A DNA stretch of 64,000 bases from Pirellula sp. (GTDB lineage: Bacteria; Planctomycetota; Planctomycetia; Pirellulales; PNKZ01). The stretch lies in NCBI GenBank assembly GCA_013822735.1, contig PNKZ01000021.1, forward strand, positions 1 to 64,000, in the 5' to 3' direction. Position 1 is the first letter of the stretch, and every line of letters begins with the position of its first letter. Under the pieces are notes generated by a model, which was not told the DNA's origin, did not search any database, and worked only from the letters and a program-made list of their open reading frames with translations. The translations under genes were made by a program, and so were the position numbers. This document shows positions 3-53,577 of the stretch, piece by piece.

Positions 3-536
3 GCCTGGAGGAAAAAAGGGGACTACGACAAGGCGCTTCGCGACTACGACGAGACCCTGCGGCTCGATCCGAAATTCACGACGGCTTACCTCAACCGCGG
101 CATCGTGAAGTTCCTGCAGCGCAACGCGGCCGCAGTTGATGATTTTCAAACTGCGATCGATGTGGAAACCGGAAACGGCAGTCGAACGCCGTATGCGACA
201 ATCGTCGCCCATTTCGCGGCTCGGGCCGCGAAGGATGAAGCCCGTGCGAAGCGTTTTCTGGAGCCGACGTCGGCCACGGAGAAAGCCGATTGGCCGATGC
301 CCGTCGTCGAGTTCCTGCGCGGCAAGCTCGATGCAGCGGCGTTGTTGGCGAAGGCCGACGACGACGACAAGCGGACCGAAGCCCGTATGTGCTTGGGCTT
401 GGACGCATTGCTCCGCGACCGAACGACCGAGGCCCGTGACCATTTCCAATGGGTTGCGAAGAACGGGAAACACACCTCTACCGGATACGACATTTCCATT
501 GCAGAGTTGAAACGCCTTGACGCCGCCGGCCGCTGA
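3..536 (+). CDS. TPR-containing protein, C-terminal part (5' end outside window)
   Basis: The open frame runs from the first bases of the window to TGA at 534-536, so the start lies upstream. The first ~40 visible residues read as a tetratricopeptide helix pair (GDYDKALRDYDETLRLDP followed by AYLNRG), the classic TPR pattern used in protein-protein scaffolding. The remaining ~135 residues are less regular helical sequence, perhaps degenerate TPRs. An internal GTG at 105 could be mistaken for a start, but coding-like TPR sequence continues upstream of it. The partner and process are unknown. Confidence is good for the TPR call and low for any specific role. Confidence 0.75.
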   Translation, partial: AWRKKGDYDKALRDYDETLRLDPKFTTAYLNRGIVKFLQRNAAAVDDFQTAIDVETGNGSRTPYATIVAHFAARAAKDEARAKRFLEPTSATEKADWPMPVVEFLRGKLDAAALLAKADDDDKRTEARMCLGLDALLRDRTTEARDHFQWVAKNGKHTSTGYDISIAELKRLDAAGR

Positions 537-891
537 GCAAGAGGCACGCGTATTCCCTTCGCAGGGTGGCAAGGACAACTGTCCGTGCGCCGGAGGCGTT
601 GGAGAAATTTCGGGACAACGATCCATCGCGACGGAGCGACTACCGTAAGCATCTTATCGCTGCGTGTCTGGTAACGTCTTAGTCCCGGGCGAGTCGTCCG
701 GGGCGTTTGTTGACGTTTGCTCTATGCAGATCGCCCGCCGCATCGCCCCCGGCGGCTCGCCGGGGGCTAAGACGTGCGATGACGTTTCACCTCATCGGGC
801 GCACGCGGGCGTTTGGTGAGCCGGTGAAATAGGAGTTGCAGTTGCTCGACGTCGACTCAAAGTGAGCGCTCCTTGCTCAAGGATCGGCGAA
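537..891. other. Intergenic region with repeat copy A1
   Basis: This 355-base gap lies between the TPR gene and the convergent 60-residue gene. Its only clear structure is the double-hairpin element at about 677-780, annotated separately. The rest shows no convincing reading frame. Confidence 0.6.
677..780 (+). repeat. Double-hairpin intergenic repeat, family A copy 1
   Basis: Two GC-rich palindromes lie about 40 bases apart. The first is CCCGGGCGA/TCGTCCGGGG around 684-704, one base off perfect. The second at 745-767 is a perfect 10-bp stem (GCCCCCGGCG with its complement) and a GCT loop, followed by TAAGACG. The same two palindromes in the same order occur at 1221-1320, and in reverse orientation at 52021-52148. 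It looks like a dispersed intergenic element. A transcription-terminator role is possible, but there is no T-tract. Confidence 0.8.
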
Positions 892-1074
892 CTACTTCTT
901 CTTATCCGTTTTGAACGTCTTGGGCGTCTGACCTACGATGCCTCCCCGTCCTCCTTGGCGCGCGTGCTCGCCTTTTCCCGTGAAGCCCCCCATGCGATGC
1001 TTGGGATCGTGTTCGGCGCCGGGCTCGCCCTTCGCGGAACTCTGACCTTTGCCGGTGGTTTTCTTTTTAGCCAT
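892..1074 (-). CDS. Small basic Lys/Gly-rich protein, 60 aa
   Basis: ATG at 1074 is preceded by a GGGAG ribosome binding site at normal spacing, which favours this start over an upstream in-frame extension. The product begins MAKKKTTGKG, has a GGFTGKGEHARQGGRGG segment and ends in TDKKK. It is highly charged and probably disordered. The glycine-rich middle is loosely reminiscent of KGG-type stress proteins, but I would not assign it to that family. It stands alone between two copies of the double-hairpin repeat. A nucleic-acid-binding or histone-tail-like role would suit the composition, but this is inference only. Confidence 0.6.
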   Translation of the reverse strand: MAKKKTTGKGQSSAKGEPGAEHDPKHRMGGFTGKGEHARQGGRGGIVGQTPKTFKTDKKK

Positions 1075-1375
1075 TGCTGAACTCCCGCTGAAATGTGTGA
1101 AGAGAGCGCAAGCCCAGATGCACTTGATGTGCCGAACGTCCGGCAACCCCGGCATGCGCATGGCGCTCGTGCACGATGGAGCGGCCGGCGAACGCACGTT
1201 GTCGTTGCGTGCCGGTGGACGTCTTAGCCCCGGGCGAGTCGCCCGGGGCGATTGTCGACGTGTGCTCGATAAAGATCGCCGGCCGTATTGCCCCCGGCGG
1301 CTCGCCGGGGGCTAACGACGCGCGCAGCGGAGTTACGACGTGCGAAGATGTTGCAACGCGCCGGCCGGCGGGTCG
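1075..1375. other. Intergenic region with repeat copy A2
   Basis: This 301-base gap separates the basic-protein gene (its upstream side) from the 3' end of the dehydrogenase at 1376-2107. It contains double-hairpin copy A2 and the promoter region of the small gene. No other gene was seen. Confidence 0.6.
1221..1320 (+). repeat. Double-hairpin intergenic repeat, family A copy 2
   Basis: Hairpin one at 1227-1249 is a perfect palindrome (GCCCCGGGCGA and its complement). Hairpin two at 1290-1312 has the 10-bp stem GCCCCCGGCG/CGCCGGGGGC. The linker (GACGTGTGCTCGAT, then AGATCGCC) resembles that of copy 1. Orientation is the same as copy 1, 540 bases away, with the 60-residue gene between them. 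Confidence 0.85.
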
Positions 1376-2107
1376 TTACACGTACACTTGCCAAGTCGGC
1401 TTGATGGTGAGTTCGGGTACGTGAGCTCTTGGCGGGAGGTTGGCGATCATCAGGACCGCGGCGCCGACGTCTTCCGGCTTCAGGATCTTCGCGCGGTGTT
1501 CGTCGCTTACTTTCGTCGGGCGCTTTTCTAGGATCGGCGTGTCGACTTCGCCGGGATACACGTTCGTGACGCGAATGCCGAACTCGGCCGCTTCTTGGGC
1601 CGCCGTGATGCCGAGGCCGGTCACGGCGAACTTCGACGCGTTGTAGCCGATGCCGCCGAGCATGCCGGCCCGCAAGCCGGAGATGCTGTTGATGTTGACG
1701 ATCAGGCCGTCGCGGCGTTCGGCCATCTTCGGCAGCGCGGCCCGCAGGCAGTAGAACGAGCCGTAGCAATTGATCTTCATCATCGCATCCCAATCTTCCA
1801 CCGAGAGCTCGGCGAGCCGACGACGGGCCGTATTGGTGCCGGCGCTATTGACGAGGATGTCGAGCGGACCGAATTCCTGGTGCACCTCGGCGAAGAGCCC
1901 TTCGACGCTCGACCAATCGCCGACGTCGACCGTGCGCGAAGTCATCGGCACGGCCGACTTGGTCGCCTCGCACGCTTGCTTCAGCACTTCGGCGCGCCGG
2001 CCGGCGAGGATCACGCGACAACCGGCCGCCGCGAACGCTTGCGCGATGCCCAGGCCGATGCCCGTGCCGCCGCCGGTGATGAGAGCCGTCTTGCCGGAGA
2101 GAGACAT
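1376..2107 (-). CDS. Short-chain dehydrogenase/reductase (SDR)
   Basis: The 243-residue protein begins MSLSGKTALITGG at ATG 2107. An in-frame extension to 2233 runs through repeat-like DNA and is rejected. It carries the classical SDR NAD(P)-binding motif GGGTGIG (~residues 11-17), the NSAG motif (~90), a catalytic serine region and the YNASK active site (~155-160), then PGEVDTP. It is a complete cytoplasmic NAD(P)-dependent oxidoreductase, substrate unknown. The C terminus is short and lacks the usual TG.x.DGG ending seen in the SDRs at 14642 and 15506, so it belongs to a different SDR subgroup. It appears to be a single-gene unit. Confidence 0.9.
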   Translation of the reverse strand: MSLSGKTALITGGGTGIGLGIAQAFAAAGCRVILAGRRAEVLKQACEATKSAVPMTSRTVDVGDWSSVEGLFAEVHQEFGPLDILVNSAGTNTARRRLAELSVEDWDAMMKINCYGSFYCLRAALPKMAERRDGLIVNINSISGLRAGMLGGIGYNASKFAVTGLGITAAQEAAEFGIRVTNVYPGEVDTPILEKRPTKVSDEHRAKILKPEDVGAAVLMIANLPPRAHVPELTIKPTWQVYV

Positions 2108-52020: not shown

Positions 52021-52148
52021 CGCCATTAGCCCCCGGCGAGCCGCCGGGGGCAAACGACGTGACGACGCCGTTGGACGCCGCAGTTGCCACGACACACCGA
52101 TCGAGATCGCCGCGCGCATTGCCCCGGGCGACTCGCCCGGGGCTAAGA
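52021..52148 (-). repeat. Double-hairpin intergenic repeat, family A copy 3 (reverse orientation)
   Basis: Hairpin GCCCCCGGCG/CGCCGGGGGC (loop AGC) is at 52029-52051, and GCCCCGGGCGA with its complement is at 52121-52143, followed by TAAGAC. Order and sequence are those of copies 1 and 2 reversed. The linker is ~30 bases longer. Confidence 0.85.
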
Positions 52149-52221
52149 CGAAACGATTCACCGCACCGCGCGCAGCCCTGAAAGGGCACGATCCGAACCG
52201 TCGCCGCGCGTTATCCGGAAA

Positions 52222-52340
52222 CAGCCTATCACGCACGCTGAAGCGTGAAAAACGAGCAAGCATTTGATACGATTGAACTTAGACGGAAAACTGTCTTGCG
52301 TGATAGGCTGCGAAGGAGCGGTCTACAGCGTGATAGGCTG
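52222..52340. repeat. 14-bp inverted repeat with third direct copy, at left edge of cassette cluster
   Basis: CAGCCTATCACGCA at 52222-52235 is the exact reverse complement of 52297-52310, and GCGTGATAGGCTG recurs at 52328-52340. Together they flank a ~60-base AT-richer middle. The position just before the first core site is suggestive of an integration or recombination region, but the function is unknown. Confidence 0.75.
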
Positions 52341-52371
52341 ATCCGTCTAACAACATAGTTAGCTGTCAGCG

Positions 52372-52773
52372 ATGCACCTCACCCAGAATCCAAGCGATGA
52401 GGAGATTCTACACGTCGTTGAGGCGTGGCTTGACGATCTCGCGGGAGGCGACTACGAGGCAGCGTTTCGTCGCACTGAGCATGACCCTTACTATCAGTGG
52501 ACGCCTGACATCATGCGCTCGGTCGTGCAGGGCTACGGATTACCAGAGCCACACCGCAGCGGCACTGTATTCACCGTCACGCCGCGAGCGTCCGCACTTG
52601 GCGGTCCGCCACAGCGCATTGTTGACCGCGATGCCGTTCGTCCACATTCTTTGGCAGAGGTTTTGTATGACCTGCCACTCAATGGTGAGTGGTCAGACCT
52701 CACAGCGACATTCCGAGTCGAGCTGCGAGGTGAAGGTTCAGCGGTCGTGTTGCAGGAGATTCATGTGTTTTGA
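52372..52773 (+). CDS. Cassette 1 gene, small cytoplasmic protein of unknown function
   Basis: The 133-residue product starts at ATG 52372, 14 bases after the G of the first core site, without an obvious Shine-Dalgarno site. It has an acidic helical start (DEEILHVVEAWLDDLAGGDYEAAFRRT), then a mixed alpha/beta body with VLYDLPLNGEWSDLTATFRVE and a hydrophobic end (VVLQEIHVF). The overall look is of an NTF2-like or DUF7668-like domain; I am not certain of the family. Its stop lies 12 bases before the inverse core of attC1. No partner and no signal peptide. Confidence 0.72.
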   Translation: MHLTQNPSDEEILHVVEAWLDDLAGGDYEAAFRRTEHDPYYQWTPDIMRSVVQGYGLPEPHRSGTVFTVTPRASALGGPPQRIVDRDAVRPHSLAEVLYDLPLNGEWSDLTATFRVELRGEGSAVVLQEIHVF

Positions 52774-52785
52774 CGAGGCCATGAC

Positions 52786-52909
52786 GGCTAACCATTCGCT
52801 GCAGTTGGCCCGCAAGCCCTCGGCAAATTGGCTCTTTGACTTCGAGTGCGTTAGGATGATTCGCAAACCCGCTCAACTTCGGGCGGGCAACTGATCAATG
52901 GCGTTAGGG
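52786..52909 (+). other. attC site 1 (integron recombination site)
   Basis: The 124-base element has R'' GGCTAAC (52786), a 9-base spacer, then CAGTTG-G-CCCGC. The right side is GCGGGCAACTG, a 9-base spacer and R' GTTAGGG (52903-52909). The left L box matches the complement of the right one except for one extra G, the extrahelical base that sets attC bottom-strand polarity. The middle resembles attC3 closely. Confidence 0.88.
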
Positions 52910-52914
52910 GCACC

Positions 52915-53205
52915 ATGCCATTGTTTGCTCAGATGGCCGACATGGATATCGACGGCGTCGTCTTGTATGTCGGTATCTTGGCTTTGCTTAGTCCCCTGCT
53001 CGGATTACTTCTCAACTTGGCAATTTATCGCAGCCAGTTTCAGCCGAGGACTTGGAAGTACGTTTTTGCATACTATGGGCTCGGTGCAATTGCTCTAATT
53101 CTCCTGCCAGATGGCCCGCTGTTCTTCTTCGTGTTGCTCGGCATGTGTGCCGTGGGCCCAATTCTGGGGCTCGTCTTGTGCCTACACGAAAACAATAGTG
53201 CCTAA
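52915..53205 (+). CDS. Cassette 2 gene, small three-helix membrane protein
   Basis: The 96-residue product starts at ATG 52915. AGGGG of the core site itself is well placed to serve as ribosome binding site. It is strongly hydrophobic with three likely transmembrane helices (~15-37, ~48-64, ~68-90) and a charged end (CLHENNSA). No family recognised. Its stop codon TAA lies inside the inverse core (GCCTAAC) of attC2, a packing typical of integron cassettes. The coding sequence is visibly less GC-rich than neighbouring chromosome genes. Confidence 0.75.
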   Translation: MPLFAQMADMDIDGVVLYVGILALLSPLLGLLLNLAIYRSQFQPRTWKYVFAYYGLGAIALILLPDGPLFFFVLLGMCAVGPILGLVLCLHENNSA

Positions 53206-53324
53206 CAATCTGCTGCAGTTGACCCTTGCGGCACACCGCGAGTTTGGCTCGTTCGCTTCGGCCGAGTTACAATCAGCTAATGGCCCACTCACTCCGGGCG
53301 GGCAACTGACCAATACCGTTAGGC
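53200..53324 (+). other. attC site 2 (integron recombination site)
   Basis: The 125-base element starts with R'' GCCTAAC (53200-53206), then a 9-base spacer and CAGTTG-A-CCC. The right side is GGGCAACTG, a 9-base spacer and R' GTTAGGC (53318-53324). There is one extra A in the left L box. R'' and R' are perfectly complementary. Confidence 0.9.
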
Positions 53325-53328
53325 CCTT

Positions 53329-53577
53329 ATGTCCGTTACGATTCAGAATTGCGGTTGGGCGGTCAAGTTCCAATGCCCGCACCATTGGGATGCCTTACAG
53401 GCAACCGACGATCCGTACGTTCGCGATTGCGGCACCTGCTTGAAGCAGGTCTACCGCTGCGATTCTGATGCGGAAGTTCGGTTCCACGCCACGCAGGGGC
53501 ATTGCGTCGCCATTCTCGTTCCCGACATTTCAGATGCCGAGGCGGGCGACTTCATTGGTGAAGTTAGTGAGGCCTAA
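53329..53577 (+). CDS. Cassette 3 gene, small Cys-rich protein
   Basis: The 82-residue product starts at ATG 53329, 4 bases after the core site, with no Shine-Dalgarno. It has CPHHWDALQATDDPYVRDCG followed by CLKQVYRC and GHC, i.e. several cysteines and histidines suggestive of a metal-binding or redox fold. Similar short proteins with a DP.VR.C..C...V..C pattern occur in planctomycetes and myxobacteria, to my knowledge without a known function. The stop TAA is within the inverse core GCCTAAC of attC3. It appears complete. Confidence 0.75.
   Translation: MSVTIQNCGWAVKFQCPHHWDALQATDDPYVRDCGTCLKQVYRCDSDAEVRFHATQGHCVAILVPDISDAEAGDFIGEVSEA

Follow-up and report, generated by a model that had tools for sequence, protein, structure and literature searches.

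The three double-hairpin copies present in the window, a 64,000-nucleotide stretch of Pirellula sp. DNA (contig C21:1-64000 of genome G000; 6.88 Mb, 38 contigs), are REP dimers with a TTAG tag, as identified by their structure, spacing and placement. We estimate the probability at about 75% that they have been spread as single-stranded DNA by a TnpA_REP-like Y1 transposase working in trans; within the same genome, the strongest candidate is encoded at C1:502730. This reading draws on direct observation of the motif, of the pairing and inward orientation of the hairpins, of their intergenic placement, of their presence or absence between species and of the link of one transposase group to TTAG-tagged hairpins.

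Structure of the double-hairpin copies

All six hairpins of the window fit the single motif TTAGCCCC[C/G]GGCGAG[C/T]CGCC[C/G]GGGGC, which forms a 10-bp stem and a 3-base loop. The two forms, Y (GGG...CCC) and Z (CGG...CCG), are variants of the same REP hairpin, set apart by a single compensated change of a stem pair. The E. coli BIMEs are built of Y and Z units, two slightly different REP forms standing head to head, and the copies described here likewise pair two slightly different forms head to head; the labels Y and Z are borrowed from there, with no relation in sequence implied. An earlier note on this DNA had reported two different palindromes: two forms do exist, but both represent one motif in opposite orientations. 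Each copy (679-770, 1224-1315 and 52026-52146) consists of two inward-facing hairpins with the TTAG tags outward. Their parts, in window coordinates, are:

629-675, plus strand: Y-side arm of copy 1, 47 nt, 31/47 identical to 1174-1220
679-704, plus strand: Y hairpin and TTAG tag of copy 1, motif with 2 mismatches
705-744, no strand: linker between the hairpins of copy 1
745-770, minus strand: Z hairpin and TTAG tag of copy 1, exact motif
895-1074, minus strand: basic 60-aa ORF with copies 1 and 2 on either side, outside the repeat unit
1174-1220, plus strand: Y-side arm of copy 2, 47 nt, matching the arm of copy 1
1224-1249, plus strand: Y hairpin and TTAG tag of copy 2, exact motif
1250-1289, no strand: linker between the hairpins of copy 2
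1290-1315, minus strand: Z hairpin and TTAG tag of copy 2, exact motif
52026-52051, plus strand: Z hairpin and TTAG tag of copy 3, exact motif
52052-52120, no strand: linker of copy 3, longer than the other two, with a same-strand alignment of its right part to copy 1
52121-52146, minus strand: Y hairpin and TTAG tag of copy 3, exact motif

Copy 3 has 71 nt between its two 25-base motifs, compared with 42 nt in each of the other two copies. Copies 1 and 2 form a direct repeat in which 84 of 98 bases are identical (676-773 compared with 1221-1318) and identity over 142 nt is 81%; beyond the copies and the Y-side arm the similarity ends (10/47 identities on the Z side, 13/48 further left). Scanning the window with up to 3 mismatches gave 9 matches at 6 places, as palindromes match twice, and none in 100 dinucleotide shuffles. 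These results confirm the claim of a double-hairpin repeat with two direct copies bracketing the 60-aa ORF and a third at 52026-52146. Copy 3, also described as inverted, is so in its hairpin types alone, for its right half (positions 52104-52174) matches that of copy 1 on the same strand at 76%. Since the types are exchanged in copy 3 and its right half retains the strand of copy 1, linker orientation does not follow hairpin type.

The 60-aa ORF matched no Pfam family and has one weak relative, in the same-genus genome G001 (44%, E 1.3e-4). Elsewhere in the window, an AT-rich inverted repeat of 38 nt, made of ATTGCAAATT units and 87% complementary, lies at 2323-2433 between the SDR and DUF1501-like genes. 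To the right of copy 3, at about 52340-53340, inspection by eye revealed repeated stretches with CTAAC/GTTAG ends and short ORFs, which look like an integron-type cassette array.

Distribution and pairing of the repeat and its occurrence among relatives

The motif scan of G000 gave 49 matches, reduced to 40 sites after 9 palindromic double matches were dropped, and none with a reversed-pattern control. The tag of these sites is mostly TTAG, with the variants TGAG, GTAG (once) and TGTG, and its G is able to pair with the last C of the motif. According to a home-made hexamer gene finder, 37 of the 40 sites fall outside predicted genes, where coding sequence makes up 82-84% of the DNA, and 3 overlap a predicted ORF. 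The gene gaps holding them are tandem in 19 cases, convergent in 9 and divergent in 1, a neighbour being missing in 8 others. Ten pairs were found within 150 bp, all with the tags outside; the three window copies are the only Y+Z pairs among them and the other seven are Z+Z. Three dimers whose partner is degenerate or of another loop type (C2:1252, C31:43030 and C7:135756) were excluded from this count. In the dimer at C7:135756 a Z hairpin is joined to a hairpin with a CCCCCGGTCGGCGACCGGGGG body, the same body that flanks the G000 transposase gene at C1:502730.

The repeat is more abundant in G001, where the matches listed comprise 92 sites (100 of 105 matches listed, minus 8 double matches). 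Among these sites, 21 pairs lie within 200 bp, all with the tags outside, and 19 of them are Y+Z and 2 Z+Z. Shuffling the types 200,000 times gave so high a share of Y+Z in 53 cases, a figure that is no strict probability as the copies share descent. With regard to the proposal that the palindromes occur as pairs, the outcome is mixed: close pairs account for 20 of the 40 own-genome sites and 42 of the 92 listed in G001, the rest being single or having a degenerate or different partner. It should be noted that this proportion, at least half of the sites outside close pairs, counts against the preferred reading. In 9 of the 92 listed G001 hairpins a stem pair has been replaced by a compensated T-A pair.

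Eight G001 dimers were compared base by base (8 of 9 examined Y+Z dimers, out of 19 in all; L171, of another subtype, was omitted). The two hairpins average 98% and 96% identity, the linker 51% and the 40-nt outer flanks 33% and 27%, and three of the eight have the Y-side arm in common. From this alignment the common unit would extend about from GTC-TTAG to CTAA-GAC, some copies adding the Y-side arm.

The occurrence among relatives is patchy. With up to 2 mismatches the motif was found in 8 of 57 relatives, G000 counted, and the same-genus genome G002 gave no match at this threshold; with up to 1 mismatch it occurs in 12 out of 396 genomes from the order, in 7 of 144 genera. A looser pattern allowing any loop of 2-20 bases was detected in 15 of 24 genomes, of which 12 had been preselected for the motif, and a control pattern gave 1 match overall. 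A dimer present at G001:C56 is absent from the flank-matched place of G000, and G001:C177 and G003:C117 have one dimer in common by position where G000 has other repeats. Neither of two G000 places without the G001 dimer offers a clean empty site, other DNA and repeats being present instead. For copies 1 and 2 no empty site could be made out: G001, G003 and G002 keep the SDR gene, but the DNA past it is unrelated in all three.

Two further G001 loci differ from the rest. At L226 (G001:C111) the two flanks of the element map to contig C1 of G000 in opposite orientations, separated by about 13 kb, so that this locus is a rearrangement break near a REP. At L231 (G001:C159) a GAGCCGGGAGCGTCAGCGACCGGAGTC hairpin apparently takes the place of Z, and a similar one stands beside a Y1 gene on contig C15 of the own genome; L231 is possibly a hybrid of two REP families.

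TTAG hairpins beside Y1 transposase genes

A Y1-type gene on contig C188 of genome G039 has a TTAG dimer upstream and an exact 25-mer of the Y/Z family about 10 nt past its stop codon. Among the 24 genomes searched, its closest relatives were G000 C1:502730-503209 (54%, E 7e-59), G003:C304 (50%) and G004:C751 (54%), the first of which, a protein of 167 aa, is the own-genome candidate. TTAG-tagged hairpins stand on both sides of all four group members inspected (G039, G000, G003 and G004), as established for three members by screen and for G004:C751 (L296) by direct reading; as background, the wider tag pattern occurred in 18 of 4000 random 265-nt windows. The bodies of these flanking hairpins are CGAGTCG and TCAATGA in G039 and TTCTTCAAA in G003; those of G000 and G004 are GC bodies of other kinds. 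Each dimer next to the G003 gene is made of two equal hairpins. At G004:C751, near position 1680 of L296, a shortened transposase gene ends at a stop codon supplied by the TAG of a REP tag.

The physical tie of the Y/Z repeat to a Y1 gene is the exact 25-mer in G039. The G000 candidate is flanked by the tag on hairpins of another body, and its nearest Y/Z site lies 128 kb off (C1:631640). In G001, the genome richest in the repeat, there is only a relative of 32% identity.

The assignment of these proteins was examined with curated and custom profiles. Against PF01797 (cut-off 23) the G039 protein scored 14.1 bits and the G000 and G003 members gave no match, while L306 and L298, aligned relatives at a greater distance, scored 28. 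Against the RAYT model NF047646 (cut-off 80) the G039 protein scored 12.6 bits, again with no match of the G000 and G003 members. The own-genome candidate matched no model of either Pfam or NCBIfam. A profile built from nine relatives and compared with solved structures placed TnpA_REP (4er8) first, with E 5.4e-4, and the residues H86 and H88 (HxH) and Y141 are invariant in nine aligned sequences. Judged from sequence, the TTAG-linked group belongs to the HUH Y1 transposase superfamily, and the candidate enzyme is TnpA_REP-like and lies outside the curated models.

The tag is not confined to one transposase group, as L312 (G039:C150), a member of another group, likewise has TTAG hairpins. In the transposase tree, from which row L296 was disregarded because of a wrong-frame reading, L293, L294 and L295 cluster with supports of 100/98, and the TTAG label overall is unclustered (3 changes; shuffled mean 3.2). 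Two genes of the own genome whose motifs resemble class 3 are neighbours of the TTAG-linked group in this tree, but separate from it. At the level of genomes, a transposase match below 1e-9 was found in 10 of 15 tag-positive and 0 of 9 tag-negative genomes, with one weak match in G012 (Fisher 0.002). This correlation is weak evidence, since half of the genomes (12 of 24) had been selected by the 25-mer, no more than 4 of the 10 matches reach 50% identity, and the genomes are related.

In the REPIN/RAYT system, reportedly described by Bertels and Rainey in 2011 and by Nunvar et al. in 2010, two inverted REPs with their spacer are said to form the dispersed unit. The TTAG family has the same kind of dispersed unit; it differs in being unlinked to any of the eight PF01797 matches of the own genome. 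RAYT-type genes, for which the earlier note asked, do exist in this genome, but none is near the Y/Z repeat: no TTAG-type hairpin was found within 260 nt of any of the eight, and the nearest Y/Z site on the same contig is 28.6 kb away (C9), so that they were rejected as partners. One of them, C9:188361 (L156, G000 C9:188205-189058), has GTAG-tagged GTAGTCCGCCRCTCCGYGGCGGA REP dimers on both sides. This GTAG family gave 59 matches in G000 and none with the control, many of them in pairs 79-82 nt apart, and together with C9:188361 it is a classic REP/RAYT set. Pairs of the same family also occur at C21:90481-90583, past the end of the window. On contig C12 (L153), several tandem copies of TGACTGACACCTTTTTT directly follow the 3' end of a RAYT-like Y1 gene.

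A second G039 gene, on contig C120, was rejected as the linked transposase: its Y1 domain lies in frame inside a methylase ORF and has another hairpin type on both sides. This ORF (L239:235-4443), of the Eco57I type, encodes 1402 aa, and a TTAG 25-mer lies just upstream. At about 940-1010 of L251 (G039:C54), a TTAG dimer adjoins sequence that, on inspection by eye, reads like a methylase motif (GFDAVIGNPPY). The surroundings resemble those at C120, and one type of target may have been struck twice.

Probable mode of spread and relation to known REP families

Taken together, these observations uphold the suggestion that the copies belong to a REP/BIME-like mobile unit: 37 of 40 sites are intergenic, all close pairs face inward (10/10 in G000 and 21/21 in G001), presence and absence vary between species at matching gene neighbourhoods, and Y1 genes have TTAG-tagged hairpins on both sides in relatives and in the own genome. 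The dimer would be a small non-autonomous mobile repeat of the REPIN/BIME type, with a spacer between its hairpins, spreading as single-stranded DNA that a Y1 (HUH) enzyme would cut and join beside the tag in trans. TnpA_REP enzymes are described in the passages cited as cutting single-stranded REP DNA at CT, or at CA in one system, with the tag as guide (PMC8266576). By analogy, TTAG may guide cleavage, which would take place at the CT across the C-TTAG junction or at the CA ahead of the tag in CA-TTAG copies. We infer that the enzyme encoded at C1:502730, or a lost relative of it, acts on the Y/Z repeat.

A serious alternative, to which we give well under an even chance, is that the dimers are orphans, their own transposase having gone from G000 and G001, that they persist by descent, drift or selection, and that the C1:502730 enzyme serves its own hairpin type only. 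The 128 kb without a Y/Z site around C1:502730, the other bodies of its flanking hairpins, the 92 listed G001 sites in a genome with a 32% relative only, and the dimer common by position to G001:C177 and G003:C117 are all in keeping with such orphans. Orphan dimers fit less easily with the exact 25-mer directly 3' of the G039:C188 gene, with the C7 dimer of G000 that combines a Z hairpin and the hairpin body of the candidate, and with hairpins still 96-98% identical between diverged linkers.

It is unlikely that the hairpins have been kept as RNA or DNA signals (protection of mRNA 3' ends, termination or a protein binding site), with mobility secondary or long past, although the preponderance of tandem and convergent gaps (19 and 9, versus 1 divergent) and the compensated T-A pair of 9/92 G001 hairpins would suit a retained signal. 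A motif that just 12 out of 396 genomes from the order contain at up to 1 mismatch, with 0 matches at up to 2 mismatches in same-genus G002, argues against this, as do the lack of a T run after the hairpins in the copies inspected and of any Rfam match at threshold in the window. The RNA element that the earlier note offered as an alternative consequently gains no positive support; within window positions 500-1500 Rfam gave six sub-threshold matches, five of them over copy 2, which look like reflections of the GC-hairpin shape. It is very improbable that the unit as a whole represents the terminal inverted repeats of a MITE derived from a double-strand (DDE) transposon: both ends do make up one inverted repeat (pair I3), but each half forms a hairpin of its own and carries a fixed tag, single halves are common, the tag-bracketed genes found are Y1-type, and no obvious target duplication was seen by eye in the copies inspected.

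Under the preferred reading of a REP dimer moved in trans, the long hairpin expected of equal halves would be weaker where the partners are unlike, which may explain why such pairs persist. With DNA parameters, the best fold was more stable than the two local folds by a mean of 5.7 kcal/mol in 12 Y+Z dimers, and by 13.8 kcal/mol in computed Y+Y or Z+Z versions. This gap fits the proposal, made in section 14 of PMC3733652, that heterodimers escape removal. The preference for Y+Z is a tendency and no rule, given the Z+Z majority in G000 (7/10) and the homodimers beside the G003 gene.

In the sections cited of Di Nocera et al. (2013, PMC3733652), REP families are sorted under two tags, GTAG and CGTC, planctomycetes are among the hosts, the CGTC class is given as having no known transposase, and the reason why dimers often combine unlike partners is stated as an open question. 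The Y/Z repeat resembles the families described there in its short, end-tagged GC hairpins, in its dimers with tags outside and 20-100 bp apart, in lying mainly between tandem or convergent genes and in forming both homodimers and heterodimers. It differs from the GTAG families, as described in the same source, in its TTAG tag, which is rarely GTAG (once in 40 sites) or TGAG, and from the CGTC families (stems of 8-9 bp, A and T first) in its 10-bp stem with GC first; CGTC precedes TTAG in many, not all, Y/Z copies. By these published descriptions its tag class is neither GTAG nor CGTC, though one of the R. baltica families shown in Figure 1 of that paper could be the same as the TTAG family. 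Within open-licence papers, no literature on TTAG-tagged REPs was recognised.

Similarly, the TTAG-linked enzymes share with TnpA_REP and class 3 TnpA_Y1, as characterised in the parts cited of PMC6006769 and PMC8266576, the HxH motif with a single Tyr and genes flanked by 5'-tagged hairpins. Class 3, which according to these passages comes mainly from Planctomycetes, is marked by a CnGA foot and Y----Q, whereas the TTAG-linked group reads YVE[RQ]HN.

A broader proposal, which we advance tentatively and regard as rather doubtful, is that the TTAG REPs of the order, of the form TTAGCCCC[S]GG-loop-CC[S]GGGG, constitute a third REP superfamily with many loop types and a co-evolving TnpA_REP-like group missed by curated models. 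Its dimers would tend to unlike hairpins, so that each could fold on itself as a substrate instead of forming one long hairpin that the cell removes.

The TTAG family offers a third tag and a candidate enzyme group beside the two tags in print, and it illustrates that a single protein-family model can overlook a candidate transposase partner. With 19 of the 21 listed close dimers of G001 pairing Y with Z, the question of heterodimers becomes testable through the swap of one base pair.
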